Of a DNA stretch of 64,000 bases, positions 16,774-43,400 are shown piece by piece (the first letter of the stretch is position 1; each line of letters starts with the position of its first letter). The stretch spans positions 15,692,001-15,756,000 of the forward strand of contig OX419762.1 of the NCBI GenBank assembly GCA_948567375.1, in the 5' to 3' direction. A model generated the notes under the pieces. It saw nothing but the letters and a program-made list of their open reading frames with translations. It did not search any database and was not told the DNA's origin. Source of the DNA: Lunularia cruciata. Its lineage: Eukaryota; Streptophyta; Marchantiopsida; Lunulariales; Lunulariaceae. Made by a program: the position numbers and the translations under genes.

Positions 16774-16829
16774 GATAGTGTGACATGTTGAAACATCAAG
16801 TGTCGTCAGTGTTGTCTATTGTAGATATA

Positions 16830-17750: not shown

Positions 17751-18189
17751 ACTACTCGCACTCTACCATCCTCCCATACATGCAAAAGGTGTTTTCCCTC
17801 CAACCTGAACCATTTGGCTCGTTGAAGAACACGGTCTCTCTCCTTTGCCCCAACTACAACATCAATGCAAATATAGTATATCACTAAGATATCATCATGA
17901 ATGTCTTGCTAAACTATACAAATATCTTCATTCTCTAGATCTGTGACCTCAATACCTCTTCTTGTATGCACTAAGAGAGATACCACCAAAGCCTCAAAAA
18001 ATATACAAAAAAGGCCGATGCATGCCAACTTGGCACCATCTCCTCATCTGTCTCACCATGCCAATGTGCTCTGCTCTAATCTTGCTGGTTGGGACATGGG
18101 TTTCTACTTAACCCATTTGTATCATGGTTCACCATTCCAGGTCGGTGAACAACCATGAAATCATACTCTTGTAAAATCAGAGCCCATCA

Positions 18190-19400: not shown

Positions 19401-19667
19401 TCCGTATACCAAGTCCCTTTAAAGCACCCAAATCCTTCATACTAAAGGTAAAACAACTCGTGTAGCTCCTCAAGAACCTCCAAATTCTTTGTCTTTCCTC
19501 TCCTGTAAGCTTGGGTCCAAGATCCGATTCCCAAGTATCCTCTCTAACTCTCGTAGGAGTGGAAGACGTATTGACTGGTTGCTACATTGGGCCCTTGGGA
19601 GCAATAGTGTCATGCCTCCAACCACTAGGGGTCCCAACCTCTGTGTGAAAAACTCTCTCCACTTAGG

Positions 19668-21000
19668 CTACAAGCTCCACATGTCCTCTAGTTGCATCCC
19701 AAGTAGACCAAGGGTGTAATCCAAGTAGCTCACGCTCACCTGGATGGACTCACACATCCCAAGTAGACCACTCTCCTTAGTAGCTATTGGTTGTGTCCCA
19801 AGAATACCATGTCCATTCGGTCCATCGCCCCTATCATGTGCATGAATCGTCTTGATACACACATGGCTCACAAATATCCGAGTGGTCATACCTATCAAGC
19901 ACATCCTACACTGCTTTGCCAAGCCAAGGCTCACAATCCAAGTCAAACAATTCAGGTCCATAGCTTGTCCTAACACCTGATGCTTGGATGCCTCTTACAT
20001 TGTTGGAACAATGGTAATACCGGTGCAAAAACCCATCGTTTGCTCTTTCTCATTGGCATTGGGTTCCACCAATTGCTGTAACTATGAGTCCCAAACAAGT
20101 CTAGGTCCTCCCTCTCAAAAAGCATGAGAGCATAGGAAACTCATGAGTGTAGGAAATGCGGTTGTAGGCTATCCAACTAGGTTCACCACTGCCATAGATG
20201 ACCTATCAGCCATTACAACTATCGGAGACTGACGCCCAACATCCAAGATGTCATCAACAAGGATGTGGTCAAGTCGTTGAATCCCATTATATGCACGTAG
20301 TAAAACCTCTCTAGGTAAGAGGTTCATCCACCAAAGATGAAGATGATGAGCCCGTGATCCCACTCTGGTTGCATCCAACCAACAATGCAACAGGTCCCAT
20401 CCAAGAATGGACTTGATGTGTACTCACCACCACTCTGGTGTGAGAATCACCCGTCAAAGGAATGTTCTCCAAAAGATAAGCTAGAGAAATAGATTGATGA
20501 ACCTGGAGATGTTGTAGTATTCGTAACATCTCCCAAAATACACCAAAACAAGGATTTTGAAGACCTAAACCTCGACCAACATGTGTATGTCCCTAACATG
20601 GCAATCCAAAAATCACCAAGTCCTATGTCTCTCCAGATCATGTGCTCCTAATAAAGAAATGTCTACTGGTAAGGCCTTTTGGTAACCTTCAACTATTGAC
20701 ATCAATAATAACTCCGGATACCAATAGGCCAAGTGTACCACATGATGTATAGAACTTGCATAACAGTCTCATCTCTCTTTACATACAAGTACCTCTGTAC
20801 TTGTATACCCGCATGTAATATAACAACTAGTTTGGTGCTACTCCCACCAAACAACTCCAATAGACATATCCCCTCTACTAGATACTGCCAAGCAATGAGT
20901 GTGGTATCCGAAGGTGTCAAAGTAATCAAATTTGGAGGCTCATCTTCACACTCATCTCTTGATGGTACGAAGGCTCCACTCCAAGCTTGTTGCACCAATT
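19668..21000 (-). pseudogene. C5 cytosine DNA methyltransferase domain, minus copy, broken
   Basis: Pieces in order: motif I region VEGICLLELFGGSSTKL (about 20,880), a PC followed by TAG at 20,593-20,595 where PCQ is expected in motif IV, AYLLENIPL (motif VI, about 20,480), LHLWWMNLLP of motif VIII (about 20,330), and the motif X-like LGQAMDLNCLTWIVSLGL (19,973-19,920). The family transfers a methyl group from S-adenosylmethionine to cytosine. Frameshifts separate the pieces. It lies between the protease and the RT, as in the plus copy. Confidence 0.82.
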
Positions 21001-21099
21001 GATCTGCATGTTGTTACAATGCCTCCTCTGAACTCCACAATGGAACATCCAAGGTGGATGGAACAATATCACTCGTACTCCAAATCCAAGTGATCTCCT

Positions 21100-23617
21100 C
21101 TGGTACTGGAGTATCCTCTGCATGGGCGTTCCCCTCCACCAAGTCACCAGGCCAAGTAACCGCACCACTAAAAGCTAAAACTAATGCTACCATGGTCTTG
21201 AACTATAGTGAGCCAAGACTACCACTACTAAAGCATATTGGTAGGCAACATACCCATCCCTCACCAGACTGCCAACTTGGTCTATAAGAGGCTATTTCCT
21301 CCCAATAGTCAATGCTGAAACCCATGAGGTATAACATTGCTCCCCCAACTAGCACATCATATGACTCAGCTATTGTTGCAATAGCTTGAGCTCTCACCAC
21401 CAAGCTATCAATCGGATGACCAGGCTGAACTTGGACAACAAGCTCCCCATGTATGATGTACTATGTCGAACCACCACTTAGAGATGTCTAGGTCTGAAAT
21501 GGACACCTCTCCACATCGATCTTCCGTAACTCCAAACCGACTACTACAACCTTCCCCAACATAAGAGGTTGCACACAAGAGTCTAAGAAGACTCTGTGTG
21601 GTGTATAGACCTTCCATGAAGGTCTCACCAAGTGGAAAATCCTCCTTTGGTTATCCAATAGGACAACACCAAGTGTGAACTGCACTCTCTCAAAGGCAAC
21701 TAACTCTTCCCGTCTAGCCGCTATTGCCTGCCATAAACCATTGGTCACTGAATGAATCCCACGCTCCTCAACCAAGTCAGCTCCACTACCAACCACCTCT
21801 ACTCTAGTAGTAGGAACCACATCATCCCTACTCTCATAAAGCATGGTAGCCAACCAGAACATTGGGGCTGTGTCAACTCCCAATGTAAACATGTCATTGG
21901 CTAAAAACAAAGGGCACTGTATAATCAGTTGAGCCGCCCCCAACATTGTGCTAGACTTAGTCTATGTAGTAGCAGGTAGTCAATCATGCACTCCATCACC
22001 ACCTACCACACCTGCAATGGGACGTCTAGGAGCCATGGATGTCATCTGCAATGCCTCATATAGCATGAGAGATTGGGGAAGTTTGACCTATCCCCAACCT
22101 CTCCTCTCTATGGATCCAACTCCACTGATGCTCCTCTAGGCTCTAGAGCACGTACTGCACTCCTAGTCACTACTATAGATGCATCCACCTAAGATGCTCC
22201 ACACATGAAGTCCAAAGCATCTCTATGCATATGAGGTGGAAGCCTCAACACCTAAATCTGATCTCCTCTAATGGCCATACTAGCCAATCTCTGCTCCAAT
22301 TGCTCAATCCAAGTTGCCACAACTGTATCAGAAGTAAGGGTTGGTATTGCACTCTACTAGGTGTAGATCCTCTACCACCACCTCTACCACCTTGTCCTCC
22401 ATGAACTAGATCTCCCCTACTACCTGCCATAGTAGCCCTACCACTCCGTAACTCCGGGTCTAGGTCAAAGCATCGGTCACTAGTGTGACCAAATCTGTGG
22501 CAATGCTCACACTGCCTCTATGCTGGCTATGATGCACCAAAGGTATTAGGTCCGCTGCCTTGAGTACACTCTCTCCTATGGTGAGGTCCACCACAAGTCC
22601 AACAAGCAACACCACTACTCACTAGCTGCTATTGACCCAAAAATGAAGGTAAGGGTCTAGCTCCACTAGGCCCTCCACTTGCTCCAGAGGATTTGGGCTA
22701 TCCACCCTGTCCTTGAAAACCAAGTGCACTCTATTGCACTCTAGAAGAAGTCACAGCCGTGGATGAGGTCTCCCTACCAAATCCAGATGTCACCACTCTC
22801 TCCTCCACCATGTTGAGCTCAATATGCTCAGCCAAACCAAAGACCACTACCAAAGTAGGCAAAGTAGCCTGTAACAACGGAGCATCATGAACTCTACGTT
22901 GCAACTCCTTGTCTAGTATCCCATACCAAAATTGGACTGCTTGGGCCTCAATAACTCCCTAAGTGAAACTGATCAGTGGCCTCATGCGAGTGTATGCCTC
23001 GCATAGGCTCTCTCCAGCCTTCCATTGGAACTCCTACAAGCTCCTCAACTTGTCAGTCCGCACTCCCTAGTAGTTCTACCTCAAACATAGGAAGAACTCC
23101 ACCATGGGGTTAAACCCCGGTACCACACCACCTCTTGTAGCAGTACCTCCACTTGTTGTAGCACTATCTCCAACTAGTGCACATCCACTAGCTCCACCAA
23201 CACTACTTGAGCTAGAACAACAGATCTACTCTTGGCCACCAAACTGGAAGTGATAGAGACATAGTTCAAAGACCAATATTGTCTCCATAACTCAATCTCA
23301 TCCAAATGAGCTCTCCTGAACTCATGGTAGTCATCCATCAACGGACCCTCCAGATGTTGAAACAACCCCTTCTATGCCATGAAGAGCGTAAACAAAGTCG
23401 GGTTCTACATCTGATGCAGATCACACCAACTATCAAACTCTTGGATGAAGTCATCCAACTCAATAGTACCCAATGTACCAGAGTAATGCCTAGGGCCTTT
23501 GGAGGCCCCATAAATCTTGTCTATGTCCTACAACAACGGTGCCAACACACCAAGTACACTCTCAACTGAATCAACTCTTGTGTCAAACTCCAACTCAAAG
23601 TCAATTTCCTCCCTCAT
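21100..23617 (-). pseudogene. Gag and protease region, minus copy, broken
   Basis: Gag begins at ATG 23,617-23,615 and shows GASKGPRHYSG, LDDFIQEFDSWCDL and FQHLEGPLMDDYHEFRRAHL, then zinc knuckles near 22,600 and 22,500 (the second reads CEHCHRFGH...DRC). The protease lies in the open frame 21,946-21,488: FLDSCVQPLMLGK, where the plus copy has LLDSGV, so the active-site Gly has become Cys. The flap-side DVLVGGAMLYLMGFSIDYW is at about 21,350. Confidence 0.8.
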
Positions 23618-25058
23618 TGGGACCTAAGATACAGAACTAATACCTAATGCCACTCCGAGTAAACCCACTGCATACTATAGGCTAACTCCTCTAGAATCCC
23701 CAACAAACTCCATCATGACAAAGTAACCGCAACTGCAACCACAAACCGGAACCACAAACAAGAACCACAAACTGCAACCGCAAATCACAACTGCAAGTAC
23801 TCCACCAAGTGCCAACACCAACTAAGTACCACCAAGTGCCAATACCCATGAAACAACACCCACTAATGTAACTCTAATTGAGATAACTACACTAGGAGAA
23901 AGGGCAACTTGTAACCTGCCATCATAACGTGCACTCTCACAATCTACAGGTCATCATTTCCTGTCTCACCAAAGAGAAACAAAGATAGTCTGACTGGTCA
24001 TCACTCTAGCCTCACTACCGAGAGCACACCAGAGCACTAACACTCAAAAGTCAGGGCACCTCACCAAACATGGTGCACAAATAGGAAGTAGAGAATGGAG
24101 GGGGTCCAATCACAAGAAATCTAAACAAAAACTCTCCATCTCATAAAACAACATGGGACTAACTCTACCACCATTTGGCATTTGACATAAGAGAAGTTTG
24201 TATCTAAGTCCTAAGCTACCAAGATCACCAAGAATGGGATCAAACTGCCTCTCTTAGCCAAAGCTCCAAGTGTATAGATAACAGTGGCACAATCACTAAG
24301 ACAACAAGTGAAGGTGGACCAATTGACTAGGGCACCAGTCTAGAAACAAGAGATCTAAGGGTCAACCCTATTGCACACAATCTAGCAAGATGGGCAGATT
24401 TTGCCAACCAATGTCCAAGATCTACTCTAAACTAGCTAGCCTCACGCCAACAAGCTAGGCCCTTCTAGGCCTTTGTAGCCTCTCATAGGCCTTGCCTCTA
24501 AATGCCAAATGAGGCCTTTTTTCTTGCCACTTTGAACCTCCTCCAAAATTTAGCAAAACTACTCCAAGTTGGCAAAAGTCCTCTAAATCTAGCAAAACCA
24601 GAGAAACTCTTCCAAATCTGGCCAAAATCTGACATAAACTCCAATAAAATCTGACATAAACCCTAAATTTAGCTGACTGCCATATCCCCCGCTAACTCTT
24701 CACTCGAGCTAAATTGAAATACAAGTTTCTTCAAATCACAAATTCATAAGAATAGCTTCCCAACTCCACCTTCAATTTTACTTTCTAAGCCTAACTTGCA
24801 ACAAATTGGTCTTGCCTTCACCTCTTGAGCTCAAAATCACAACCACTGCTCAAAAATTACTTCTTCTTTGCTTAAAAATTGGCAAGCGCTTCCGCACACC
24901 GTCTGCCTTATTGCCAAATTTGCATCAAGCAACAAGCTTCTATACACCAAGGAAAAATTGAACTTCAATTGAGCTACCAATGATCCACCGAGCTTGGAGA
25001 TACCACAAACACTCAAAGTTCTTGCACCCAATTTCCCCTTAACTTCACTTCTTTGATG

Positions 25059-25521
25059 TAATCAGATTGTTTACAACTCTCAAATCAACTCAAATCAAAT
25101 TAGTACTTGATCTGTCACTCTATAAACTACAAACAATTAGGCATTGATTACAATCAAGCCACACCCACTCTAGCTAAGAGAATCTAGGTGACGCTCACCG
25201 GCCTCTATCCACCATAGCTAGGAACTCAAAGGCTCAATATTAGAGAAGTGAGCTCTTTGGAGCTGCAGTTTGAAAGTATACCCCTGGACTTGAGCTAGGT
25301 CTGAAACCCTAACGGTCCCGCTGACAATACACTCAATGGTGCAAACGGTGCAAAGTGACGGTGGGCCCCACCATGAAGTCAATACCCAAACACAAAATCT
25401 GACCGTCAGAAAGTAGTCTTTGAGAAACTACTGAAATAACTCTAACTACTATCACTGCAACTCGAATGTCCGAGCAATCTAGATGCGACACTACAAATAG
25501 CATAACAGTTGTAACAACTAT
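25059..25521 (-). repeat. terminal block A1 of the minus copy (5' end)
   Basis: About 450 bp. Matches A2 of the same element (15,763-16,200), including copy-specific variants such as GCTATTTGTAG and CTAGATTGCT. The block starts at 25,508, or 25,521 if a short insertion is allowed, and no B block lies upstream. The next bases belong to the head-to-head junction with the plus copy. Confidence 0.82.
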
Positions 25522-25545
25522 TTATATGTCACGCCATATGTCATA

Positions 25546-25994
25546 TGTCACGCCATTTATAGTGCCGCGTCTAGATGCTTGGACACTGGAGTTCTAGTGA
25601 TAGTAGTTAGAGTTATTTCAATAGTTTCTCAAAGACTACTTTCTGATGGTCAGATTTTGTGTTCAGGGTACTAACTTCACGGTGGGGCCTACCGTCACTT
25701 TGCACCATTTACACTGTCGAGTGTACCGTCAGCAAGACCGTTAAGGTTTTAGAGCTAGCTCAAGTCCAGGGGGTATAGTTTCAAAGTGAGCTCCAGAGAG
25801 CTCACTTCTCTGATGTTGAGCCTTTGAGTTCCTAGCTATGGTGGATAGAGGCCGGCGAGCGTCACCTGTATTCTCTATGCTTGAGTGGGTGTGGCTTGAC
25901 TGTAATCAGTGCCCAGTTGTTAACAGTTTATAGAGTGACAGATCAAGTACTGATTTGAGTTGAGTTGAGTTGAGAGTGGTAAGCAATCTGATTA
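25546..25994 (+). repeat. terminal block A1 of the plus copy (5' end)
   Basis: About 449 bp matching A2 at 34,848-35,288, starting near TGTCACGCC and ending GCAATCTGATTA. A short duplication of ATATGTCACGCCAT (25,524-25,537 and 25,543-25,556) blurs the outer boundary. No B block lies upstream. Confidence 0.85.
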
Positions 25995-27420
25995 CATCAG
26001 AGAAGTGAAGTCAGTGGGAAATCAGGTGCAAAAACTTTAGTGTTAGTGGTATCTCCAAGCTCGGTGGATCATTGGTAGCTCGATTCAAGTTCAGTGTTTC
26101 CCTAGTGTGCAGAAGCTTGTTCAATTGATGCAAATTTGGCAGTTAGGCGGACGGTGTGCAAAAGCGCTGGCCAAATTTTGAGCAAAGAAGGAGCAAATTT
26201 CAAGTAGTAGTTGTGATTTTGAGCTCAAGAGGTGAAGGCAAGACCAATTTGCTGCGAGTTGGGCTCAGAAAGTCAAATTGAAGGTGGAGTTGGGAAGCTC
26301 TTCTCAAGAACTTGTGATTTGGAAAAACCCATGTTGTCAATTTGGCTCGAGTGGAAAGTTAGCAGGGGATTTGGTGGACATCCATCTTTAGGGTTTATGT
26401 CAGATTTTACATCAGATTTTGGTTGGGATTTATGTCAGATTTTGGCCAGATTTGGAGGAGTTTTGCTAGTTAGGAGTTTCGCAGATTTGGAGAAGTTTTG
26501 CCAATTTTGGAGGAGGTTCAAAGTGGCAACAAGAAAGGCCTCATTTGGCTGAATTTCGGTGTTTTGAGGCATATGGCTATGTGCTATGAGAGGCTACCAA
26601 GGCCTAGAAGGGCCAGCAAGCCAGCTTGCTAGCGTGAGGCTAGCTAGTTTAGAGTAGATCTTGGTCATTGGTTGGCAAAATCTACCTTTCCTGCTAGATT
26701 GTGTGCAACAGGGTTTGACCCCTAGATCTCTTGTTCCTAGACTGGTGCCCTAGCCAACTGGTCTATCCTCACTTGTTGTCCTAGTAATTGTGCCACTGTT
26801 ATCTATACACATGTAACTTTGGCTAGGAGAGGCAGTTTGATCCCATTCTTGTTGATCTTGGTAGCTTAGGACTTAGATACAAACTTCTCTTATGTCAAAT
26901 ACCAAATGGTTGCAGAGTCAGTCCCGTGTTGTGTTATGAAATGGAGGGTTTTTGTTTAGATTTCTTGTGATTGGACCCCCTCCATTCTCTGCTTCCTATT
27001 TGTGCACCACGTTTGTGTGAGGTGCCCTGACTTTTGAACGTTGGTGCTCTGGTGTGCTCTCGATGGTGAGGTTGGAGTGATGACTAGTCAGACTACCTTT
27101 GTTTCTCTCCGGTGAGGCAGGAAGTGATGACTTGCAGACCGTGAGAGTGCGTGTTATGATGGCAGGTTACAAGTTGCCCTTTCCCCTAGAGTAGTTATCT
27201 CGGTTAGAGTTACATTAGTGGGTGGTGCTTAGTTGGTACTAGCACTTGGTGGTGTTGGCACTTGGTGAGGCACTTGCGGTTGCAGTTGGTGGTTTGGGTT
27301 TGCTATTGTGGTTACTTTGTCACGACAGAGTTCTTTGGACATTCCAGAGGAGTTAGCCATGTAGTACGCAATGGGTTTATTTAGAGTGGTGCTCGATATC
27401 AGCCTGTATCTCAGGTCCTA
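25995..27420 (+). other. long untranslated leader of the plus copy
   Basis: About 1.4 kb between A1 and the Gag start codon, collinear with 23,618-25,058 of the minus copy. Open frames here (for example 26,232-26,552) are not kept in the other copy and look incidental. A leader of this length could hold packaging or translational signals, but none is identifiable. Confidence 0.6.
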
Positions 27421-29420
27421 ATGAGGGAGGAGATTGACTCTGAGTTGGAGTTCAACACAGGAGCTGATTCAGTTGAGAGTGCACTTGGTGTGTCCACACC
27501 AATGTTGTGGGACATGGACAAGATTTATGGGGCCTCCAAAGGCCCTAGGCATTACTCTGGTATAGTGGGTACCATTGAGTTGGATGACTTCATCCAAGAG
27601 TTTGATAGTTGGTGTGATCTACAGAAGATGCGGAACTCAACTTTGTTCACACTCTTCATGGTATGGAAGGGGTTGTTTCAGCATCTGGAGGGTCCACCGA
27701 TGGATGACTACCATGAGTTCAGGAGAGCTCATTTAGAGGAGATTGAGTTATGGAGACAATATTGGTTTCCAGATTATGTCTCCATCACTTCAGGCTCGAT
27801 GGCCAGGAGTAGATTGGTTGTACATACGAGTTCTAGCTCGAGTAGTGTGGGTGGAGCTAGTGGAGGTGCACTAGCTGGAGATAGTGCTACTACGAGTGGA
27901 GGTACTGCTGTAGGAGGTGGTGTGGTATCGGGGTTTAACCCCATGGTGGAGTTCTTCTTGTGTTTGAGGCAGAACTGGTAGGGAGTGCAGACTGACAAGC
28001 TGAGGAGCTTGCAGGAGTTCTAGCAGAAGGCTAGAGAGAGCCTACGCAAGGCATACACTCGCATGAGGCGGCTGATCAGTTTCACTCAGGGAGTTACTGA
28101 GGCCCAGGCAGTCCAGTTTTGGTATGGGATACTGGATAGGGAATTGCAACGTAGAGTTTGTGATGCTACGTTGTTGTAGGCTACTTTGCTCACTTTGGCA
28201 ATAGTCTTTGGTTTGGCTGAGCGTATTGAGCTCAATATAGTGGAGGAGAGAGTGGTGACATCTGGATTTGGTAGGGAGACCTCATCCACGGTTGTGACTT
28301 CTTCTAGAGTGCAGTAGAGTGCACCACGCCCAGTTGGTTTTTGAGGACAGGGTGGACAGCCTAGATCCTATAGAGCGAATGGAGGGCCTAGTGGAGTTAG
28401 ACCCTTACCCTCATTTTTGGGTCAGCAGCAGCCAATAAGTGGTGGTGTTGCTTGTTGGACTTGTGGTGGACCTCACCATCAAAGAGAGTGTACTCAAGGC
28501 AGTGGACCTGATACTTTGGGTGTATCACTGCCAACACAGAGGTAGTGTGAGCATTGTCACAAATTTGGTCACACTAGTGACCGGTGTTTTGACCTACACC
28601 CAGAGTTACGGAGTGGTAGGGCTGCTATGGCAGGTAGTAGAGGAGCTCCAGTTCATGGAGGACGAGGTGGTGGTAGAGGATCTACACCTAGTAGGGGTGC
28701 AGTACCTGCCCTTACATTTGACACCACTATGGCTACTCAGATTGAGCAGTTGGAGCAGAGATTGGCTAGTATGGCTATTGCTCAAAGGAGATCAGATTCA
28801 GGTGCTAAGGCTTCCACCTCATATGCTGGTGATAGAGATGCTTTGGACTTCATGTGCGGAGTAGCACAGGTGGATGCATCTGCAGCATTGACTAGGAGTG
28901 CAGTACGTGCTCCAGAGCCTAGAGGAGCATCAGTGGAGTTGGACCCACAGAGAGGAGAGGTTGGGAGATAGGTCAGACTTCCCCAGTCTTTCACGCTATC
29001 TGAGGCATTGCAGATAACATCCATGGTTCCTAGACGTCCTAGTGCAGGTGTGGTAGGTGGTGATGGAGTACATGATAGACTATCTACTAGTCAGCCACCT
29101 ACTACTACTCAGACTGAGTCTAGCATGATGTTGGGGGCGGCTCAATTGATTATGCAACATCCTTTGTTTTCGGCCAGTGATATGTTTATATTGGGAGTTG
29201 ACCCAGCCCTAGTATTCCGGTTGGCTGCCACATTGTGTGAGAGTAGGGATGGTGCAGTTCCTACTACTAGAGCAGAGGTGGTTGGTAGGGGAGCTAACTT
29301 GGTTGAGGAGCATGGGATCCGTTCAGCGACCAGTGGTTTATGGCAGGCAACAGCGGCTAGACTAGAGGAGTTGCCAGCTAGACCGGCCTTTGAGAAGCAC
29401 GGTTTACACATGGTGTTGTC
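27421..29420 (+). pseudogene. Gag with two zinc knuckles, plus copy, broken by TAG stops
   Basis: Starts at ATG 27,421, the same site as in the minus copy. The first 186 residues are open: an acidic N-terminus, then LDDFIQEFDSWCDL and DDYHEFRRAHLEEIELWRQYW, a capsid-like helical region, then a Ser/Gly/Ala-rich linker. A TAG at 27,979-27,981 stops it. The same frame continues through RKAYTRMRRLISFTQGV and two zinc knuckles: CWTC...H...C (about 28,450-28,492) and a standard CX2CX4HX4C (28,546-28,587). A Gly/Arg-rich segment and a linker to the protease follow. Stops at 28,033, 28,180, 28,315 and 28,543 are TAG, several where the other copy reads CAG. Confidence 0.82.
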
Positions 29421-29479
29421 CTATTGGATAACCAAAGGGGGATTTTCCGTTTGGTGGGACCTTCAGGGAAGGTCTATAC

Positions 29480-29770
29480 ACCACATAGAGTCTTGTTAGA
29501 CTCTGGTGTGTAGCCCCTTATGTTGGAGAAGGCTGCAATTGTCGGTCTAGAGTTACGGAAGACCGATGTGGAGAGGTGTCCATTTCAGATCCAGACATCT
29601 CTAGGTTGTGGTTTGACACAGTACATCACACGTGGGGAGCTTGTTATCCAGGTTCAGCCTGGTCATCCGACTGATAGCTTGGTGGTGAGAGCTCAAGCTA
29701 TTGCAATAATAGCTGAGTCATATGATGTGCTAGTTGGGGGAGCAATGTTATACCCCATGGGTTTCAGCAT
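29480..29770 (+). pseudogene. retropepsin-type protease domain, plus copy
   Basis: The active-site motif LLDSGV appears at about 29,494-29,511, followed at once by a TAG, then PLMLEKAAIVGLELRKTDVE. The C-terminal hydrophobic motif DVLVGGAMLYPMGFSIDYW lies at about 29,725-29,780. It would be an aspartic protease cleaving the polyprotein. The frame differs from Gag, so either a frameshift mutation or programmed frameshifting separates them; the minus copy reads across this point in one frame, which favours mutation. Confidence 0.78.
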
Positions 29771-30083
29771 TGACTATTGGGAGGAGACAACCTCTTATAG
29801 ACCTGGTTGGCAATCTGGTGAGGGATGGGTATGTCGCCTACCAGTACGCTTCAGTAGTGGCAGTCTTGGCTCACTACAGTCAGAGACCATGGCAACATCA
29901 GTTTTAGCTTTCAGTGGAGCAATTACTTGGCCTGGTGACTTATTGGAGTGGAACGCCCATGTAGAGGATACTCCAGTACCAGAGGAGATCACTCGGCTTT
30001 GGAGTACAAGTGGGATTGTTCCATCCACCTTGGATGTTCCATTGTGGAGTTCAGAGGAGGCATTGCAGTAGCATGCAGATCAG

Positions 30084-31349
30084 TTGGTGCAGCAGGCTTG
30101 GAGTGGAGCCTTCGTACCATCAGGAGATGAGTGTGAGGATGAGCCTCCAGAGGCAATTGCTTTGATACCTCTAGATACCACACTCATTGCTTGGCAGTAT
30201 CCAGTAGAGGGGATATGCCTATTGGAGTTGTTTGGTGGAATCAGCACCGGACTAGCTGCGGTGTTACAAGCGGGTATACAAGTACAGAGGTACTTGTATG
30301 TAGAGAGAGATGAGACTGCTAGGCAAGTCTTTCTACATCATGTGGCACACTTGGCCTATTGGTATCCAGAGTTATTACCGATGTCAGCAGTCAGAAGTTA
30401 CCAAAAGGCCTTACCAGGAGACATTTCCTTATTGGGGGCGCATGACCTAGAGAGACATGGGCCTATTCACTTGGTGATTTCTGGATGGCCATGTTAGGGA
30501 CATACACATGCTGGTAGAGGATTGGGTCTTCAGGATCCTCGTTTTGGTGTGTTTTGGGAGATGTTACGGATACTACAACATCTCCAGGTTCATCAGTTTG
30601 TTTCTCTAGCTTACCTTTTGGAGAACGTACCTTTGATGGGTGATTCTCGCACTAGAGTGGTGGCGAGTACACATCAGGTCTATTCTTGGATGGGACCTGC
30701 TGTATTGTTAGATGCAGCCAGAGTGGGATCACGGGCTCATCATCTTCGTCTTTGGTGGACGAACCTCTTACCCAAAGAGGTTCTACAGTACGCTTATAAT
30801 GGGATTCAACGACTTGACCACATCCTTGTTGATGATATCTTGGATGTTGGGTGCCAGTCTCAGACAGTGGTAGTGGCTGATAGGTCACCTATGGCAGTGG
30901 TGAACCTAGTTGGACAGCCTAGAGCTGCATTTCCCATACTCATGAGTTTCCCAAGCTCTCATGCTTTTCGAGAGGGAGGACTTGGACTTGTTTGGGACTC
31001 ACAGTTACAATAGTTGGTGGAGCCCAACGATGATGAGAGAGAGCGGGTGATGGGTTTTTGCACCAATATTACCGCTGTTCCAGCAATGTCAAAGGCATCT
31101 AAGCGTCAGGTGTTAGGTCAAGCTATGGACCTGAACTGCTTGACCTGGATTGTGAGCCTTGGCTTGGCAGAGCAGCGTAAGATGCGCTTGATAGGCATCA
31201 CCACTCGGACACTTGTGAGCCCTGTGCCTATCAAGACAATTCAGGCACATGCTGGGGGTGATGGACTTAGTGGCCATGGTATTCTTGGGACACATCTAGT
31301 AGCTACTAGGGAGAGTGGTCTACTTGGATTACACCCTTGGTCCACATAG
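30084..31349 (+). pseudogene. C5 cytosine DNA methyltransferase domain inside the retroelement polyprotein, plus copy
   Basis: One frame with only TAG interruptions. Motif I: GICLLELFGGISTGLAAVL with FGG at 30,231-30,239. Motif IV: GWPC then TAG (30,495-30,497) where Gln of PCQ is expected, then GHTHAGRGLGLQDPR. Motif VI: AYLLENVPL (ENV at 30,621-30,629). Motif VIII: RAHHLRLWWTNLLP (about 30,730-30,775). Motifs IX/X: ERERVMGF...ITAVPAMSKASKRQ, then LGQAMDLNCLTWIVSLGL (about 31,040-31,170). The tail segments resemble the DNMT3 type. It lies between protease and RT and would be released or act as part of Pol, methylating cytosines, perhaps in the element's own cDNA (inference). The catalytic-loop stop disables this copy. 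Confidence 0.87.
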
Positions 31350-31499
31350 GATGCAGCCAGAGGACGTGTGGAGCTTGCAGCCAGAGTGGAGGGAGTTTTT
31401 CACACAGAGGTTGGGATCTCTAGTGGTCAGGAGCATGACACTATTGCTCCCAAGGGCCCAATGTAGCAGTCAATCAGTACGTCTTCCACTCCTACTACA

Positions 31500-32960
31500 G
31501 TTATAGAGGATACTTGGGAACCAGATCTTGGACCCAAGCTTACTGGAGAGGAAAGACGGAAGGTTTGGAGGTTCTTGAGGAGTCACACGAGTTGTTTTGC
31601 CTTCAGTATGAAGGATTTGGGTGCTATGAGGGACTTGGTATACGGATTGAGCTGACTAGCGACACACCAGTTTTCCGATGTCCTTATCGATATAGTGATA
31701 TGGAGAGGACATTGATTCAGAGCCGGAGTAGTGACCTTTTTGAGGCTTGTTTGGTGGAGATTTCACATGGAGAGTATGCATCAGCGACAATGATGCCAGC
31801 CAAGAAGGATATGCATGGCAACTATACAGATAGGCGGATGTGTGGAGATTACCGTCCTATCAACCGATAGACCAGGGCTGATCGGTATGCCATGCCTACA
31901 CTAGAGGAGATTTTTGATGAGATTGGGCATGCAAAGGTCTTCAGTACTTTGGATCTTTGAGCGGGATATCATCAGTTGCCGATCAGGAAGGAGGACAAGT
32001 CCAAGACAACATTTTGGGCTATTGATCCTCATGGCAAGGAGGTGTTATATTAGTGGAGGTTCTTACCATTTGGGTTAAAGAACGCTCCTGCTGAGTTCTA
32101 GAGGGTCATGGATAGGATCCTAGCTGGATTGGATTTTGCTTGGTGCTATATTGATGATATTTTGGTTTATAGCACTACTGTGGAGTAGCATGAGAGATAG
32201 TTGTTGGAGGTGTTTGAGAGGTTGAGATCTCATGGACTCAAATTACATCTTGGGAAGTGTAGGTTCTTCCACGAGCAGGTTGAGTATTTGGGTCACACTA
32301 TCTACCCCGAAGGACTTGGTGTTCAGCAGACCAAGGTGGAGGCTATTGCACGTATTCCTTGGCCTAAGGATGTGAGCAGAGTGTGAGCATTCCTTGGGTT
32401 GGTGAACTTCTATCACCGCTATGTTAGAGGATTTAGTGTCATTGCCAAAGCTTTGACGAAGCTGACCAAGCTTACACAAGAGTGGTGTTGGGGAGATGAG
32501 CAAGAGAGAGCTTTTATAGAGCTCAAGGAGAGGTTGACATCTGCTCCTATTTTGAGGAGACCAATCAGGGGATGACCATTTCAAGTTCACACTGATTGGA
32601 GTATGTTAGGGCTTGGAACGGTGCTCACCCAACATGATGATGAGGAGAAGGAGGTTGTGGTGGCCTATGCTAGTTGCTTCAACAATTCAGTGGAGGCATA
32701 GTAAAGTTCATATGAGGGAGAGTGCTTGGCAGCAGTTTGGGCAATAGCACATTTCCGATGCTACTTATTTGGTAACCCCTTCACTCTCATCACTGATCAT
32801 CAGCCGCTGAAGTGGTTGATGGAATCCGACAAGCTTTCAGGGAAGCTTGCACAATGGGCTCTAATTTTATAAGAGTATGATTTCACGGTTGTTCACAGAC
32901 CTGGAGTGGTGAACCATGATGCAGATGGGTTGAGTAGAAACCCATGTCTCAGCCAACAGG
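31500..32960 (+). pseudogene. reverse transcriptase and RNase H, plus copy, broken
   Basis: RT pieces in order: KLTGEERRKVWRFLRSH, FRCPYRYSDMERTLI, ATMMPAKKDM, MCGDYRPINR, KVFSTLDL (stop) AGYHQLP, WRFLPFGLKNAPAEF, the catalytic YIDD at 32,147-32,158 followed by ILVYS, and LGHTIYPEGL. RNase H: HTDWSMLGLGTVLTQHDD, ITDHQPLKWLM and a VNHDADGLSR tail. Typical Ty3/gypsy RT-RH. In-frame stops at the ends of open segments include TAG (from CAG by comparison with the minus copy), a few TGA and one TAA. Confidence 0.88.
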
Positions 32961-33229
32961 ATCAGACCGGAGCACATTGGCATGGTGAGACAGATGAGGA
33001 GATGGTGCCAGGTTGGCATGCATCGGCCTTTTTGTGTATATTTGCAGAGGCTTTGGTAGTATCTCTCTTAGCGCATACAGGAGGAGTTATTGAGGTCACA
33101 GATCTAGAGAGTGAAGATATTGATACAGTTCAGCGAGACATTCATGATGATGCCTTAGTGATGGACTATCTTTGCATTGGTGTTGTGGGTGGCACAGTTG
33201 GGGCCAAGGAGAGAGACCGTGTTCTTTAG

Positions 33230-34330
33230 CAAGCCAGATGGTTCAGATTGGAGGGTAGACACCTTTTGCGTGTATGGGAGGATGGTAGAGTGCAAGTAGT
33301 ACCACTTCCATCACAAAGACCACAGTTGGTCCGTCATGCTCATGAGGAGCTAGGACATTTTGGAGTAAAGCATACATATAGCTTACTCAAGAGTCATTAT
33401 TGGTGGCGCGGTATGCAGACCAAAGTACAACAATTTGTTGCAAGATGTATGGTTTGTGACCAAGTTAGAGCATCATTCAATGCTCCTACGCCACAGTTAC
33501 ACCCATTACCTATCATGGGATTGGGTTACCGTTGGAGTTTGGACTTCACCGGACCTTTACTGCTGATTGTGAGACATCATCGGTACGTTTTGGTGATGGT
33601 GGAGCACTTCTCCAAGTGGATTGAGTTGGTGGCACTTCCTGACAAGTCTAGTGAAGGGATATCTTACTTGTTCTTGGATCGAGTTCTTAGTCATTTTGGT
33701 GCACCAGCTGAGGTTTTGACTGATCAGGGTATAGAGTTCTTGGGGGAGTTTCAGGTCTTGTGTGACAAGGCTTTGATTGATCATTGTACTACATCCCGAG
33801 ATCACCCTGAGGCAGATGGCTTAGTAAGAGAGAGTGGTTCAGACGGTGAAGAGAGGATTGCAAAAGTATGGTTTGCAGAGAGGTCACTTGGGAGATTGGG
33901 ATCTCCAATTACCTTGGTTGGCCATGGGCTATTGGTTCAGCCGGCAAGCCTCCTTAGCATCCTTCTCACCATACTTTCTACTCTATGGACAAGATCCAGA
34001 TTTACCTGCAGCCATTCGTCGAGATGCTACTGTAGTTTTGGACTTGGATGACCCCGATGTATGGATGAGCGCATGTTCTCAGCGGGCAGAGATCTTTCGG
34101 AGAGTGATGCCGATGGCCTTTGAGAACTTGGCAATTGCTCAACATAGAGATACTTTACGCTATGCTACCATTCAAGGAGGAGGTTATAGACACTCAATCC
34201 GTCGATTTCATCTAGACAACTATCTATAGCAAACATCATCGATGACACTTGATGTTTCTACAGGCCGCACTATCTTGAAAGTGCGTGAGGTTTTGCCATC
34301 TGGAGTCCTTGTGTTAGAAGGACGTGATGG
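33230..34330 (+). pseudogene. DDE integrase, plus copy, one frameshift
   Basis: Zinc-binding domain HAHEELGHFGVKHTYSLLKS with CMVCDQ, then the core: SLDFTGPL (Asp near 33,542), LTDQGIEFLGEF (Asp at 33,722-33,724) and DHPEADGL (Glu near 33,808). A frameshift near 33,825 moves the reading frame, after which GLQKYGLQRGHLGDWDLQLP and SPYFLLYGQDPDLP continue. The C-terminal domain is KVREVLPSGVLVLEGRDGVVW. This is a retroviral-type integrase, not a tyrosine recombinase, which matters for the split terminal repeats. Confidence 0.87.
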
Positions 34331-34409
34331 TGTTGTTTGGAAGGATCATGTGCGCAATTGTGCGCCATGCCACCTTCCAAACATTGATGGTACTATGGAC
34401 CCAAGCTTG

Positions 34410-34580
34410 GCACTTGTATGTGCATGCTTGAGGTGTATGTTATGTGGCTCTGCTGGTGGAGCTGCTACTATGTTAGTGTGTGATAGCTGTTCGAGAGGAT
34501 GGCATATGGCATGTATGACTCCTCCTCTCCCGGTGGTTCCTCAAGGACAGTGGTTCTGTCCTTGATGTACTTGACCTATA
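34410..34580 (+). pseudogene. PHD finger at the C-terminus of Pol, plus copy
   Basis: Reads LRCMLCGSAGG, then MLVCDSCSRGWHMACMTPPL and QGQWFCP followed by TGA and CT. All C4-H-C3 ligands are present; the stop at about 34,564 replaces the Arg of CPRC in the minus copy. Such fingers bind the H3 tail and could steer integration to chromatin with a given mark (inference). In DNMT3 enzymes a related ADD finger links histone reading to DNA methylation. Confidence 0.8.
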
Positions 34581-34742
34581 GCTAGTTCATTCTTTATATG
34601 GTATAGATTGCAAACAGGCGACTAACGATGGGGCTCCATAGCACCCGGCCTCCTGATCTTTGCCCATTAGAGGGTATACCATATACTTAGAGTAGATGGC
34701 TATCTGGAGTTAGAGGGACCTAACCGCCAGCTAGGGGGGCAA

Positions 34743-34847
34743 TTGTGACACTTTAGAGTCTATGTATGACTTATGTGTGAGTTGTGCTTCTATTGTGTAT
34801 GATGTTGACAACGATGTATGTTGTGTAGCGATGTATATACGCACGAT
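34743..34847 (+). repeat. terminal block B1 of the plus copy
   Basis: About 105 bp starting TTGTGACACTTTAGAG right after the polypurine tract and running to GTATATACGCACGATA, where A2 begins without a gap. Nearly identical to B2 at 35,289-35,391. Confidence 0.85.
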
Positions 34848-35288
34848 AGCTGTCATGCCATTCATAGTGCCACGTCTAGATGCTTGGACATTGGAGTTCT
34901 AGTGATAGTAGTTAGAGTTATTTCAGCAGTTTCTTAGAGATTACTTTCTGATGGTCAGATTTTGTGTTCAGGGTACTGACTTCACGGTGGGGCCCACCAT
35001 CACTTTGCACCGTTTTCACCGTCGAGTGTGCCGTCAGCGGGACCGTTAGGGTTTCAGAGCTAGCTCAAGTCCGTGGAGTATAGTTTCAAAGTGAGCTCCA
35101 AAGAGCTCACTTCTCTGATGTGAGCCTTCGAGTTCTTGGCTATGGTGGACAGAGGTCGGCGAGCATCACCTGGATTCTCTATGCTTGAGTGGGTGTGGCT
35201 TGACTGTAATCAGTGCCTAGTTGTTGGTAGTTTATAGAGTGACAGATCAAGTACTGATCTGAGTTGAGAGTGGTAAGCAATCTGATTA
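34848..35288 (+). repeat. terminal block A2 of the plus copy
   Basis: About 441 bp matching A1 at 25,546-25,994 and ending GCAATCTGATTA. At the 5' end the same sequence is followed by CATCAGAG and the leader; here it is followed by TTGTGGCACTTTAG, the start of B2. Confidence 0.86.
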
Positions 35289-35391
35289 TTGTGGCACTTT
35301 AGAGTCTATGTATGACTTATGTGTGAGTTGTGCTTCTATAGTGTATGATGTTGACAACAATGTATGTTGTGTAGCGATGTATATACACACG
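35289..35391 (+). repeat. terminal block B2 of the plus copy (outer 3' end)
   Basis: About 103 bp nearly identical to B1 over its full length, stopping at GTATATACACACGAC. Beyond this the sequence is unrelated to the element and differs from the sequence outside B2 of the minus copy, so this is a true terminus. Confidence 0.85.
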
Positions 35392-36304
35392 ACACATAGG
35401 ATAAGTTGATGGTGATTGTGATAAAGTACTCATGCCTTTGTAGATTTGAATGAGGTCAACAAGCTTCCTCTTGTACTTGATGATCCTGTTCAAGATGCTC
35501 TTTGTGCTTCTTTGAACTTGGAGATCATGTGGCTTTGCAATTTGAATTACAAGGTTGTTAGTTGATCATCCATATAGACCTTCCTCTCAAGAACCTCAAT
35601 TTGAGTTTGAAGTCCTTAATCTTTGTCCGATTTGTTGTGTTGTTGGCCATCCATTCTAGTTGGTTCAAGGGTTGAGTCATTGTGTGTTCTATGGTCATGA
35701 GAAGACCCACACATTTATTTGCCAAGTTTTTGTGGCCTTGCTGAAGTTTTGACTTTAGGTCCTCTCATGCCTTTTTGTAATCTTTAGGTCCTCTCTTACC
35801 TTGGTCATTACCTCAAGTTTTGCCATGTTGTGTTCTGACACTGTGTCATTGGCTATGTTGGTGTGTTTGTCTCCTTATAGGGGGGTCATGGTAGAATCTT
35901 CTTCTTTTAGCTTTCACACTTTGGCTTTTTTTTTTTGCATTTCTTCTAGCAATACTTTAATAACTTGCTTTCTCTTTTGTTTATTGGAGACCAAGTTTTG
36001 CTCTTCATTGCATGTAACTTCTTGTTGCTCATGATGGTGTTGTAAGATTCTTGATAGGTACAAACTTATTGGCACAAAGATACTCCTTGTTTGCATCATG
36101 ATACTTAAATATTTCCTTGGCCAAATGGGATGCACGCTGAAGTAGATTGGATGATGAGAGTGACTCAAAAATCTCTCCTTCTCCTTGTTTGTGAAAAAGC
36201 CTATTCCCAAGTAGAAGTGCACAATGAAGAGCGCTATGATTATGGCCACTCCTTGCTCCATGTCCTCCAATAGCTCATTTACTCATTCACTAAACATCCA
36301 CCTT
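35392..36304 (-). mobile_element. possible internal fragment of a TGTAATA-family LTR element
   Basis: Adjacent to the LTR at 36,305-36,962 on the side expected for its internal region, given the LTR's minus orientation. An open frame (36,270-35,914) begins MEDMEQGVAIIIALF about 35 bp past the LTR and ends in a Lys-rich segment. I recognise no Gag domain, so the assignment rests on position. It is cut off by the B2 end of the DNMT element. Confidence 0.35.
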
Positions 36305-39547: not shown

Positions 39548-39712
39548 AAGTCCAGAAGATGCTAATTATAATGGTGATGGTGGTGTTGATTGTGTAGAAG
39601 CAGGAGGACTTCCTGCTGGAGCTGGATGTGGAGGATATGTTGCTGTAAAACTATTGAAAGAATTAAACGCTTTTTATGAATATAATATTATTTATTTGAT
39701 GTTTTAGGTGAG
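39548..39712 (+). pseudogene. chlL: plastid-derived chlL fragment
   Basis: Translates with small changes as [20 protein letters not shown], then [17 protein letters not shown] and FDVL. This is the ChlL subunit of the light-independent protochlorophyllide reductase. The gene is absent from angiosperm plastomes, so the fragment places the host outside flowering plants, assuming it came from the host's own plastid. Confidence 0.88.
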
Positions 39713-39781
39713 GACTTTCACCATCAAGGATGCAGGACTCAACTGCTTCTCCTAGCAACACAACAGTTATATAGCTCCTGG

Positions 39782-39929
39782 ACAACCCCATTTTCACGGT
39801 CTAGGCTGGTCCCATTTCACTCGCCGCCACCAAGAGACTTGCTTTTGCTTTTGCGTTCTTTTCCTCTGGCTACTAAGATGTTTCAGTTCGCCAGGTTGTC
39901 TCTTGTCTGCTTATGAATTCAGCAGCGAA
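39782..39929 (-). pseudogene. plastid-derived 23S rRNA fragment, second piece
   Basis: The reverse complement reads from the GAATTCATAAGCAGACAAGA region through CTTAGTAGCCAGAGGAAAAG to the AAAACGCAAAAGCAAAAGCAAGTCTCTT region and the GTGAAAATGGGGTTGTCC end. It overlaps the first 23S piece by about 66 bp and extends beyond it, so the two are separate insertions or a local duplication. Confidence 0.82.
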
Positions 39930-40320
39930 GACGTTAAGACCGCGATCCGATACGTCACTTCCGCTTATTCTCAGTGGAAGGGTTTAGGGTCAAAACGAAA
40001 GCAAGATCGAGACGAAACGAAACGAAACGAAACGAAAGCAGAACCCCTTCTGTTCTCACCATCACAGGCCTCTATAGTAAGATAAGTAATAAGTAAGTAA
40101 ACAATAAGTAAGTAAGTAAGTAAAGCCTAAGAGACCGTGGCGGATGTCATTGTTCAATTGGATCTTTTGTAACTTCTTTTTAAGAAGAAAATGGGGACCA
40201 CGTAGAACACATGAAGGATGGGAATGGGAAACTTCTTTTTAAAGGAATGAAGGAACACATGAAGGATGAAGGAAAGTTGGGAACACATGAAGGATGGGAA
40301 ACTTCTTTTTAATGGACTTC
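39930..40320. repeat. simple repeats and degenerate copies of a 3' untranslated motif
   Basis: An (AAACG)n run at about 40,012-40,036 and an AAGT-rich microsatellite at about 40,083-40,122 are followed by three to four irregular copies of GAACACATGAAGGATGGGAA and AACTTCTTTTTA at about 40,200-40,315. These resemble the 3' end of the adjoining R2-like element. Confidence 0.6.
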
Positions 40321-40417
40321 AACAATTCGGGTAAAAAGCAGACCGCATAGGAAAAATGAAGGATGGGAAGACCCCATCAAGTCGTACAAGGGAGAGACAA
40401 AAAAAGGTAACATGGGG

Positions 40418-43400
40418 CTAAGCCCCAATAGAGTCTGTATGAGAAATCTGCCCTACCGCACCTAAGATATCCGAGCTATGCAAGTCGTACGGTCTACACA
40501 CAACTGGAGCATCCAAAGAAACATCACCTAATGTGATTGCTCTCCTATGGATTGCACCAGCCACTGCCCTCTGTAGAGCAATGGACACACGCTGTCCAAA
40601 ATATGCTACAAAGTATGAGAGTGAGAGTGGTACCCCCTGACGCCTAACATGATAAGCTCTCGTGCACTCCTTGACAAATGTGTCAAATGCCATGTCCATC
40701 GCTCCACATAACTCCAAGGCTAGAGGAACAAAGAGGTGACCTTGCTGCATGCCCCTATACTTGGAGACCTTGCGACCTGCTGTTGCACTCGCCGCCCATC
40801 CAAGGGGATGGGTAATCACTCTCTCCAAAACTGTATCCCGCGTAGGGTCTGTGACCATGACATCCGCTACTGTCACCTGATCATCTCGGACCATGTATAA
40901 GTCTGCCCTAAAATGTGTTGTCTGCAAAGCATACAAACGCTCCTTCCAAGCCAAGTATCCACTCTCTCACGCCATAGCAAACACTATGTCTCTAATGACA
41001 TCATGGATAGCTATCCTCTGTCCTCCAAAAGGACACCGTGTCATGTGGACCGCCGCTGCATTTAGTGTAGAACCACACTCACAAGTGAGTAGAGAAGATG
41101 CAGATGGGTCAACCAAACCTAGGCAAAACCTCATTGCTATAGAGAAAGTAGCCGATGCAAGTCGAAAAGCCCTAATGCACGGTCAAGCTAGGATCCACGA
41201 GCCTGCACCCTTGCCATAGCAAGAGTGAAGACGTGCTCTAGTAGCATGAGGAATGGACGAGTCAACTAAGAGAAAATGTAGCGTATGCTCACCATATCGC
41301 TCCATCAAGGAAGACTGTAAACCTCTAGTCCAATCTGACGATAGTGAAGCAAATGGTGGAAAACACTCTCGTGCTCGTTGGGATAGACTATCTCTCATCT
41401 GCCGCAATAACACCTGGAGAGAAAAGGATCCTCCCTCCACCTCTGTCACATAAGTCTCCAAAACCGGCCTATCAACAACCACAAAACGAGAGGAAAGTAG
41501 GGGTGCCGAGAGAGCACAACTACCCAAAAATGCTATAGGTGCCATCTCCTCCATAAAAAGTAAGCCAACCCCACCACATGAGTTTGGTAGAGCCGTCTGT
41601 CTATGCGCCAAATCCCTTGTCACACACTCAAAATTCCCTGGTCCAATAATATCACCAAAGACTCCCATAATCCTCCTATCAAATGCTCTCAGACGTGATA
41701 GGAAGGACGGTGAGGGGGGAATTGTACAGATGAGGTAGGATGGTCAACAAGCAATACTGGAAGAGAGTATACCAAATGCCACCTGCGGATCTCCTAGTAA
41801 TGGAAGGTCATCCACATGGAGAACATCCTCTACAAGGGCAGCGTCCAAGAAGCGTGTGACAAAATCCTCCGATCCTACTAGCACTCCAAGAACACGAAGT
41901 CCATATGTGGATGCAATACACCCCTCTGGAAGCTCAAGGTGGGGAGGGATACCTAAAGGGGACAATGCCCTACACTTTGACACCTTGACTCTCAAGCCTA
42001 CTAGATGTAGCTCGGTAGTCAAGTAGTCAAAGGCATGCCTAATTTGATCTACATGGCCTACAATGTGTGTATCATCTTCCAAGGAGAGAGATACTGTAAT
42101 AATCCAAGGACAAGAGAAGAGAGAAAACACGGATTGCACACTCAAACATTTGATGCCCCAAAGGAGCACCTTCTCTTTATTATATAGACAAAGAGGATCT
42201 ACTCCAAGGAAGCTCCACAATAGGTGACATGTCAGCAAGCTCCACCCTTGGATTACTTACTTGGATGGGTGACATGTCTGGTCTAGGTCCTATCTGGTTG
42301 GTCAAACAAGCTTTGACCGGAGGGAATCTTTTAGGGAATCTTTTAGGGAATCTTCTTGTAGGAGTCTCAGAATCACATGAGTAAGGTACCGTTGGAAAGC
42401 TCTCGACGAGACAAAGCAAGGGGGAGGGAAGGCCAGCCTTTCATTTTTTGGGGGAGGAATATGTATCTTTTTGAGGCCTAATTCATTTGTTTAGGCTTCC
42501 GAAATTGCCTTCAAAGATTTCAGGCATATTTTGGTTGCTACTCTATTAGTAGAAGTCGCCTTTTGGTGATACCTCTTTCTGATCTGTTTAGTCCATCATG
42601 TGTAACATCCTTCTAGATATTACCAAACCAATTCTCACCTTTAAATCATATGTCTAGCTATTGGTTCTAAGGTTCTCAAGTCTATTTCGGTTTCTGCCCT
42701 ATTAGTAGAAGTACTCTTTTGGTGATATTTCTATCTTATCTATTTTGACCATCATGTATAACATCATTCTAGATGTTGCCAAACCGAATTTCAGATCTAG
42801 ATCATATGGCTAGCTCTTGGTATTACAAATACACAACCTAGCATGGCCAAAGTAGTAGATAGGAGAGCTCTAAAGTAAGCCATGGCAAATAAGGGCCCCC
42901 CAAAGGATCTCCTTGACATGTACCAACAGCTGACTCCAAGACGGTGACTCCCTCCCGTGAACCACCATGCTGGTAGTAAAGGGAAGCAGGAGAGCCATAA
43001 AAAGACCACACAAAAGGAATGAGACTCGCCAAGGATCCACCAGCCTCCCTACGCTCTCTAAAGATGGATGCACATGAGACGTTATTAAAAGTGTTCTCAA
43101 CATCCACCTGTAGGATGATCCACTCCGGATGGATATCTAGGAGTGCTCTAATGCCTAGAGATATAGCCTCACATCCTCCAGGTGTAGCTACTCCAAACTG
43201 ATGTGGACTAAGGTGCTATAAAAAATGAGAATGATGCTGAAAGACAATGGTACGACTGACCAAATGTAAGAAGATCTCTCCAATAGTAATTGGTCTAATG
43301 CTTTTTGTGTCCTTCTCCATCACGAGAAGTCAACTAGCACCTAACACCCGACTAACAGACATAGGAATGTCTTCTCTTGCTACTACTGCAGCCACCTGAA

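Follow-up and report, generated by a model that had tools for sequence, protein, structure and literature searches.

Why should a retrotransposon carry an enzyme that methylates DNA? DNA methylation is a main weapon of plants against retrotransposons, and the question is raised here by a window of 64,000 nucleotides from the liverwort Lunularia cruciata (contig OX419762.1, positions 15,692,001 to 15,756,000). Two Ty3/gypsy-type elements, A and B, lie head to head in it, and in both a cytosine methyltransferase of DNMT3 type stands between protease and reverse transcriptase (RT). A first-pass annotation had reported a cytosine DNA methyltransferase (DNMT) inside a land-plant Ty3-like retrotransposon. 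Its observation was confirmed and its interpretation was largely right; the leaky UAG, the PHD finger and the repeat structure are additions to it. Our results make it likely that A and B belong to a high-copy bryophyte family of Ty3/gypsy type, in which Gag, protease and DNMT3 would be translated up to a leaky UAG, and RT, RNase H, integrase and PHD finger by readthrough. Domain content and order, copy number, leaky-stop motif, split repeats and 4-bp duplications are read directly from the DNA; enzyme activity, readthrough and PHD binding are predictions from it.

Organization of the elements and type of the methyltransferase

The two elements are 85-89% identical, and both have the terminal pattern A1-coding-B1-A2-B2. 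Their parts are as follows, with the basis of each assignment after the semicolon.

25,546-35,394 (+): element B, whole, with TG...CA ends; repeats, ends and the same ends in other copies
25,542-25,545 (no strand): target-site duplication CATA, left of B; sequence
25,546-25,994 (+): repeat A1 of B; 91% identity to A2 over 419 columns, plus 29 identical bases
27,514-29,400 (+): Gag region of B; tblastn with residues 1-604 of Marchantia protein P0081
28,453-28,491 and 28,546-28,587 (+): two zinc knuckles in Gag of B; CCHC scan
29,484-29,900 (+): aspartyl protease region of B, approximate limits; tblastn with P0081 residues 605-1271
about 30,162-31,187 (+): DNMT3-type cytosine methyltransferase of B, with stops inside; PF00145, PDB DNMT3A and tblastn limits
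31,464-31,472 (+): UAG CAG UCA of B, type I leaky-stop motif at the Gag-PR-DNMT / Pol boundary; sequence and other copies
31,826-32,302 (+): reverse transcriptase (RVT_1) of B; PF00078, 105 bits
32,489-32,878 (+): RNase H of B; PF17919 and PF17917
33,311-33,808 (+): H2C2 zinc-binding part and DDE core (rve) of the integrase of B; PF17921 and PF00665
34,434-34,568 (+): PHD finger at the integrase end of B; PF00628, E 9e-11
34,733-34,741 (+): polypurine-tract-like AGGGGGGCA just 5' of B1 in B; sequence
34,742-34,848 (+): repeat B1 of B; 96% identity to B2 over 105 nt
34,845-34,854 (+): internal B1-A2 junction GATAGCTGTC of B; sequence and other copies
34,851-35,288 (+): repeat A2 of B; repeat alignment
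35,288-35,394 (+): repeat B2 of B; repeat alignment and sequence
35,395-35,398 (no strand): target-site duplication CATA, right of B; sequence
15,657-25,507 (-): element A, whole, more decayed than B and head to head with it; repeats and ends
25,059-25,507 (-): repeat A1 of A; repeat alignment and sequence
19,905-20,747 (-): methyltransferase of A, frame-broken; tblastn with L012 and P0081
19,576-19,584 (-): UAG CAA CCA of A; sequence
16,477-17,343 (-): C-terminal part of the integrase and PHD finger of A; tblastn with P0054
16,206-16,307 (-): repeat B1 of A; repeat alignment
15,763-16,200 (-): repeat A2 of A; repeat alignment
15,657-15,763 (-): repeat B2 of A; repeat alignment and sequence

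Downstream of the DNMT, the Pfam matches to RT, RNase H, H2C2 and rve integrase follow in that order, which is the order of Ty3/gypsy elements. The first-pass annotation had correctly placed the DNMT between an in-frame protease and RT. The protease was recognized by alignment to P0081; no Pfam protease match was obtained on the window itself, and in the relatives P0096 (akin to P0081; Pfam) and P0023 the domain is an aspartyl protease.

Read with X at the stops, positions 29,514-31,349 matched PF00145 with a score of 25.6 bits (E 9.9e-6) and so passed the curated cut-off of 22 bits, while the separate open pieces of the DNMT of B stayed under that cut-off (best 12.5 bits). Motifs I (LELFGG), IV (GWPC-stop), VI (LENVP) and VIII (GSRAHHLRLWWTN) stand in the normal DNMT3 order, as had been noticed at first pass. 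The stop that had been placed at the PCQ position is a TAG where stop-free copies of the genome have CAG (11/12) or CAA (1/12), and it thus fits a C-to-T change. The second copy claimed at about 21,000-19,668 is present on the minus strand by tblastn, but its frame is broken, a straight reading gives no Pfam match, and motif IV lies outside its matched segments.

Among PDB sequences, the DNMT of B was closest to DNMT3A (E 4.2e-11), with DRM2 at 1.2e-3. A profile of 21 relatives gave 69-85 bits for DNMT3A/3B, 41-50 for DRM (the two best chains are labelled only 'DNA methyltransferase' and we take them to be DRM), and up to 28 for DNMT2 and HhaI. The host genome has a DNMT3 gene (L013) and a DRM gene (L014), both assigned from motifs; the DRM has the rearranged motif order, and the element DNMT is unrearranged. 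In a tree of 21 rows, limited by its long branches, the 15 retroelement rows fell on one side of a branch marked 75/94 (not starred), and host DNMT3, host DRM and human DNMT3A were placed together (90/92). By motif order and PDB matches, the element domain is of DNMT3 type, closer to DNMT3 than to DRM, DNMT2 or bacterial enzymes.

Several other origins were rejected. A chance match of short motifs is ruled out by the PF00145, PDB and protein-relative matches. The first-pass annotation had allowed for a host-gene fragment present in only these two insertions; the domain occurs in thousands of copies, and this number, together with host DNMT3 and DRM genes of different sequence, rules such a fragment out. 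A bacterial or phage origin was rejected as well: HhaI and HaeIII score far below DNMT3, and the 11 viral-contig loci that encode relatives do so at 29-57% identity over short segments.

The domain might now act on RNA, as DNMT2 enzymes do, or serve as a nucleic-acid-binding part of Gag instead of a DNA methyltransferase, and its place inside the Gag polyprotein would suit such a role. So would the behavior of the Klebsormidium nitens enzyme, which produced no methylation in yeast, a result called inconclusive by its authors (de Mendoza et al., 2018; PMC5890265). However, DNMT3 matches best and DNMT2 much less well, and the Pro-Cys and Glu-Asn residues are kept, so that this role appears quite improbable. 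A DNA methyltransferase is the reading we prefer.

Other features of the window were recorded beside the elements. The 38-bp spacer between A and B (25,508-25,545) contains TGTCACGCCAT, a copy of the A1 start. A POT/PTR2 transporter gene occurs twice, at 801-2742 (-) and 49027-50989 (-), about 48 kb apart with the DNMT elements in between (Pfam E 4e-35 to 2e-48 over four open frames). A second repeat in inverted orientation, 40400-44288 / 57848-61403, is 93-96% identical and has open frames, three of which gave no Pfam match; a perfect 231-bp tandem duplication lies inside its second arm at 58605-59066. In addition, a piece of a bacterial-type large-subunit rRNA gene at 39656-39970 (-) (Rfam RF02541, 60 bits) probably comes from plastid or mitochondrial DNA inserted into the nuclear genome.

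Leaky-stop motif, PHD finger and split repeats

The boundary between the DNMT and Pol carries the same signal throughout the copies examined. Twenty-four genome copies, most of them picked for long open frames, all have UAG CAR YYA at this place (20 UAGCAGCCA, 3 UAGCAGCUA and 1 UAGCAGUCA). The DNMT frame is continuous into the UAG in 23 of the 24, and beyond it the frame is open for at least 59 codons, reaching the end of the stretch examined in 10 copies. The related element L012 has UAG CAA UCA, after which Pol continues in the same frame. UAG CARYYA is the type I readthrough signal of plant viruses (PMC5382211). The Gag-PR-DNMT / Pol boundary thus has a type I leaky-stop motif, at which readthrough would be expected. 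Since the DNMT lies upstream of the leaky UAG, its predicted level is that of Gag, and less Pol would be made.

The integrase ends in a PHD finger of the C4HC3 type. All eight ligands are present in 20/20 genome copies, and they are also kept in L012, P0054, P0101 and P0102; 11 of the 20 integrase-PHD pieces are free of stops, one of them (L071) in two segments. The nearest solved PHD fingers include those of CHD4, KMT2D, ATXR5, KDM5A and DPF3, several of which bind histone H3 unmodified at K4. The mark that the element finger may recognize can be guessed from its resemblance to these readers. A PHD finger has also been described in the Ginger1 DNA transposon, which has a Gypsy-like integrase (PMC2836005).

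The ends were checked in ten further copies, of which seven have both ends in the stretches covered; the stretches of L022 and L028 are without the left end, and those of L029 are without A on both sides. In all seven copies with the left end covered, the element begins with A1 without B, and A1 starts with TGTCACGCC. The right end is GACA in 10/10 copies and has the arrangement B-A-B in nine, the right stretch of L029 having one B and no A. Identical 4-bp flanks were found in six of the seven copies (ACTC, CATA, GAGG, ACTT, AACC, TCCA), the flanks of L025 being unmatched (CTTA vs ATCA). In the window, B has CATA on both sides, and the flanks of A agree in 3/4 bases (CAAC vs AAAC). The TG...CA ends and short target-site duplications of Ty3/gypsy elements are therefore present, and together they indicate that the outer ends behave like integrase ends. 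However, a Ty3/gypsy element has the same LTR at both ends, and here A1 alone stands on the left and B1-A2-B2 on the right.

The internal B1-A2 junction is GACA-GC-TGTC (GACAGCTGTC) in seven of the nine other copies in which it is covered, with the variants AACA-GC-TGTC in L039 and AATA-GT-TGTC in L025. In the window it reads GATA-GC-TGTC in B and GATA-GT-TGTC in A, and GACAGCTGTC is also present in L012. To judge from these bases, the junction looks like two integrase-type ends joined with two bases between them. It would be either the site at which a circular form is cut or a means of restoring ends lost in the RNA, the role proposed in DIRS elements. Inspection by eye recognized no classical tRNA primer site 3' of A1. 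DIRS proper was rejected as a class: an rve integrase takes the place of the tyrosine recombinase, for which the Pfam scans gave no match, and target-site duplications are present, which DIRS elements are not known to make. A chromovirus was likewise rejected, given the PHD finger at the integrase C-terminus and the lack of any chromodomain match in the Pfam scans.

Copies, relatives and constraint

The family is abundant in the 565.8 Mb (74 contigs) of genome searched. A 22-mer of the DNMT, with up to 2 mismatches, gave 2,009 + 1,964 = 3,973 matches, and a 20-mer over the B1-A2 junction gave 1,114 + 1,166 = 2,280, with no match for the reversed-pattern control of the former or the control of the latter. 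If the copies were full length, 2,280 junctions at 9.85 kb each would amount to about 22 Mb, or 4% of the genome. A genome search with the PF00145 profile gave at least 123 scored matches among 2,161 first-look candidates, the number being a minimum; the matches lie mostly over about profile positions 48-120, in open frames of up to 1,428 aa.

Relatives were found in other bryophytes, in agreement with the earlier suggestion of a land-plant branch, with named matches in Calypogeia, Marchantia, Riccia and Sphagnum. By label, 80 protein matches comprised 14 from Marchantia, 5 from Sphagnum, 3 from Calypogeia, 1 each from Riccia and Closterium, 1 labelled as a bacterium and 55 without an organism label; a second set of 22 comprised 14 from Marchantia, 1 from Sphagnum fallax and 7 without an organism label. 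No protein named Klebsormidium was among the matches listed (80/80, 22/22 and the best 120 of 175), most of which have no organism label. In P0101, RT, RNase H, DNMT, integrase and PHD finger follow one another in a single protein, and in P0155 the DNMT also comes after RT and RNase H (its place read from the sequence). In the family of A and B it comes before RT; the DNMT therefore stands at two different places in the wider group, and the domain would have changed place or been captured twice. L012 (CADCWO010000201.1) is publicly deposited as a contig of a cyanobacterial MAG. It is a DNMT-Gypsy element whose open frames are long and whose identity to element B over protease and DNMT is 39%, and it is probably a eukaryotic contaminant. 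Its ends overlap by 127 bp, so that it closes on itself, which a collapse of repeats in the assembly would also explain.

Half of the copies examined (12/24) are free of stops over the aligned DNMT, one of them (L032) aligned in two pieces, and all 12 keep Pro-Cys-Gln and Glu-Asn. The motif I region is altered in some of them (FGR in L018; STR for STG in L027 and L032). Across 23 aligned relatives, 29-77% identical to the reference row, no exception occurs at P139, E183 or N184, and C140 is present in 22. Pooled over the 66 pairs of stop-free copies, which are not independent, pN/pS was 0.370, vs 0.68 (sd 0.03, lowest of 60 draws 0.61) for random placement of the same substitution types in the same CG context; the other five readings of the same bases gave 0.50-1.12. 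Without the two-piece L032, the value was 0.441 (55 pairs) vs 0.68 (sd 0.04, lowest of 60 draws 0.59).

These ratios are only moderately low, and for the most similar pairs they approach or exceed 1, which young copies would be expected to show. Both points, together with the dead state of the two window copies, could be taken to mean that a host DNMT3 was caught once and has been carried without function, persisting through recent amplification of one source. However, neutral decay would have erased the catalytic residues that are kept across such divergent relatives, and the in-frame ratio lies under all 60 null draws in each of the two runs. Carriage without function is thus very improbable, and a domain under constraint remains our preferred reading.

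Insertion was recent in 6/7 copies, as judged from their A1/A2 identity of 97.1-99.3%. L025, with 89.4% and unlike flanks, is perhaps old, or perhaps a recombinant of two elements. A and B themselves are dead, with stops and frameshifts. Compared with three stop-free copies, C-to-T change reached 19-20% at CG and 13-14% at CHG in B, and 32-33% and 29% in A, vs 3% (B) and 6% (A) at CHH; the reverse change was 2-4%. This bias points to long CG and CHG methylation of the elements, in the germ line, and the window copies would be relics whose damage came mostly from the deamination of methylated cytosines at CG and CHG.

The strong loss at CG and CHG relative to CHH would also agree with an enzyme that methylates and silences the copies, lowering their load instead of hiding new ones, an idea of self-limitation or host benefit also raised elsewhere (de Mendoza et al., 2018; PMC5890265). 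However, the host has DNMT3 and DRM genes of its own, and such decay is the outcome of host methylation in any plant; nothing links it to the element enzyme in particular. Host methylation at CG and CHG in plants is the work of MET1 and CMT. Self-limitation is accordingly unlikely in our view, and we return below to an enzyme that serves the element.

Known systems and possible function

The closest published system is KnitGypsy-Dnmt3 of Klebsormidium nitens, a Gypsy element with a Dnmt3 and DIRS-like repeats, for which purifying selection has been reported (de Mendoza et al., 2018; PMC5890265). Like the family described here, it has a DNMT3-type enzyme inside the Gypsy polyprotein and DIRS-like repeats, which stand here in the order A-coding-B-A-B. 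The likeness is drawn from reported features, since no Klebsormidium-named sequence was among the matches listed. The two differ in several respects: the host there is an alga and here a bryophyte; K. nitens has fewer copies than Symbiodinium (PMC5890265), whereas thousands occur here; a leaky UAG separates DNMT and RT here; and a PHD finger follows the integrase here, a word absent from the main text of PMC5890265, figure aside. The same paper describes DIRS and LINE elements with DNMTs in Symbiodinium. SymbioDIRS-Dnmt3 shares the DNMT3 in a retrotransposon polyprotein and the A-coding-B-A-B repeats, but has a tyrosine recombinase instead of a DDE integrase, and its DNMT was acquired independently according to the authors (PMC5890265). 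The first-pass annotation had cited this paper correctly for DNMTs in retroelements and too broadly for their activity, because de novo CG methylation in yeast was shown for the SymbioDIRS-Dnmt3 enzymes only (PMC5890265).

Other comparisons are more distant. Chromoviruses also have a chromatin-reading module at the integrase end, which is a chromodomain there and a PHD finger here. An orchid Gypsy with an AlkB m6A demethylase (PMC9289625) is similar in being a plant Gypsy with a captured nucleic-acid modification enzyme, and different in that the enzyme is an RNA demethylase, in an additional ORF, in an angiosperm; angiosperm LTR elements were screened there for extra domains, and the word DNMT is absent from the retrieved text. 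DNMT elements of streptophytes and dinoflagellates are cited as Copia and DIRS in PMC12344493, and the portion of that paper at hand has no mention of Gypsy, liverwort or bryophyte. The main text of a study of liverwort genomes (PMC9985172) contains none of the words methyltransferase, methylation, integrase and PHD, and the retrieved part of a Marchantia paper (PMC9516144) mentions DNMT3 and not retrotransposons. Among the open-licence titles and abstract openings listed, with subscription journals and preprints largely outside them, none reported a land-plant retrotransposon bearing a DNMT or a Gypsy integrase bearing a PHD finger. As a DNMT3-bearing Gypsy with such repeats is known from Klebsormidium, the family represents a land-plant version of a type already published, for which the leaky stop, the PHD reader and the target duplications are described here.

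Gypsy elements without a DNMT transpose well, and the enzyme is therefore not essential for a Gypsy. What it may do here can be outlined in steps. The methyltransferase is probably made at Gag level and packed into particles, and the enzyme of stop-free copies is probably active. Tentatively, and with a little less than an even chance, it might methylate the element's own new DNA or the landing site, and the newcomer would thereby bear the mark of resident heterochromatin instead of being left to detection by the host. By analogy with the named readers, the PHD finger could bind the histone H3 tail, probably unmodified at K4, and steer integration, in the place taken by the chromodomain in chromoviruses; this pair of steps, too, is slightly more doubtful than probable.

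A wider scenario, possible but rather unlikely, would trace these parts to a single event in early streptophytes, in which a Gypsy lineage took up DNMT3 and then retained it through charophytes, mosses and liverworts as part of a mobile chromatin writer-reader kit. In it, Gag-packed DNMT3 would write 5mC on the incoming copy, the integrase PHD finger would pick H3K4-unmethylated chromatin, and the DDE integrase would use the palindromic circle-type junction GACA-GC-TGTC by a DIRS-like circular or end-restoring route. Were this true, the approximately 4,000 DNMT copies could have a real influence on the host methylome.

The family is also a naturally occurring example of a DDE integrase that works together with DIRS-like repeats, and it suggests that transposon genes are among the DNMTs counted in annotated bryophyte genomes. 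As relatives of it occur in Marchantia, a model liverwort, what a transposon gains by methylating DNA becomes testable in a tractable land plant. It seems that a genomic parasite brings along tools of the very silencing system that is used against it.
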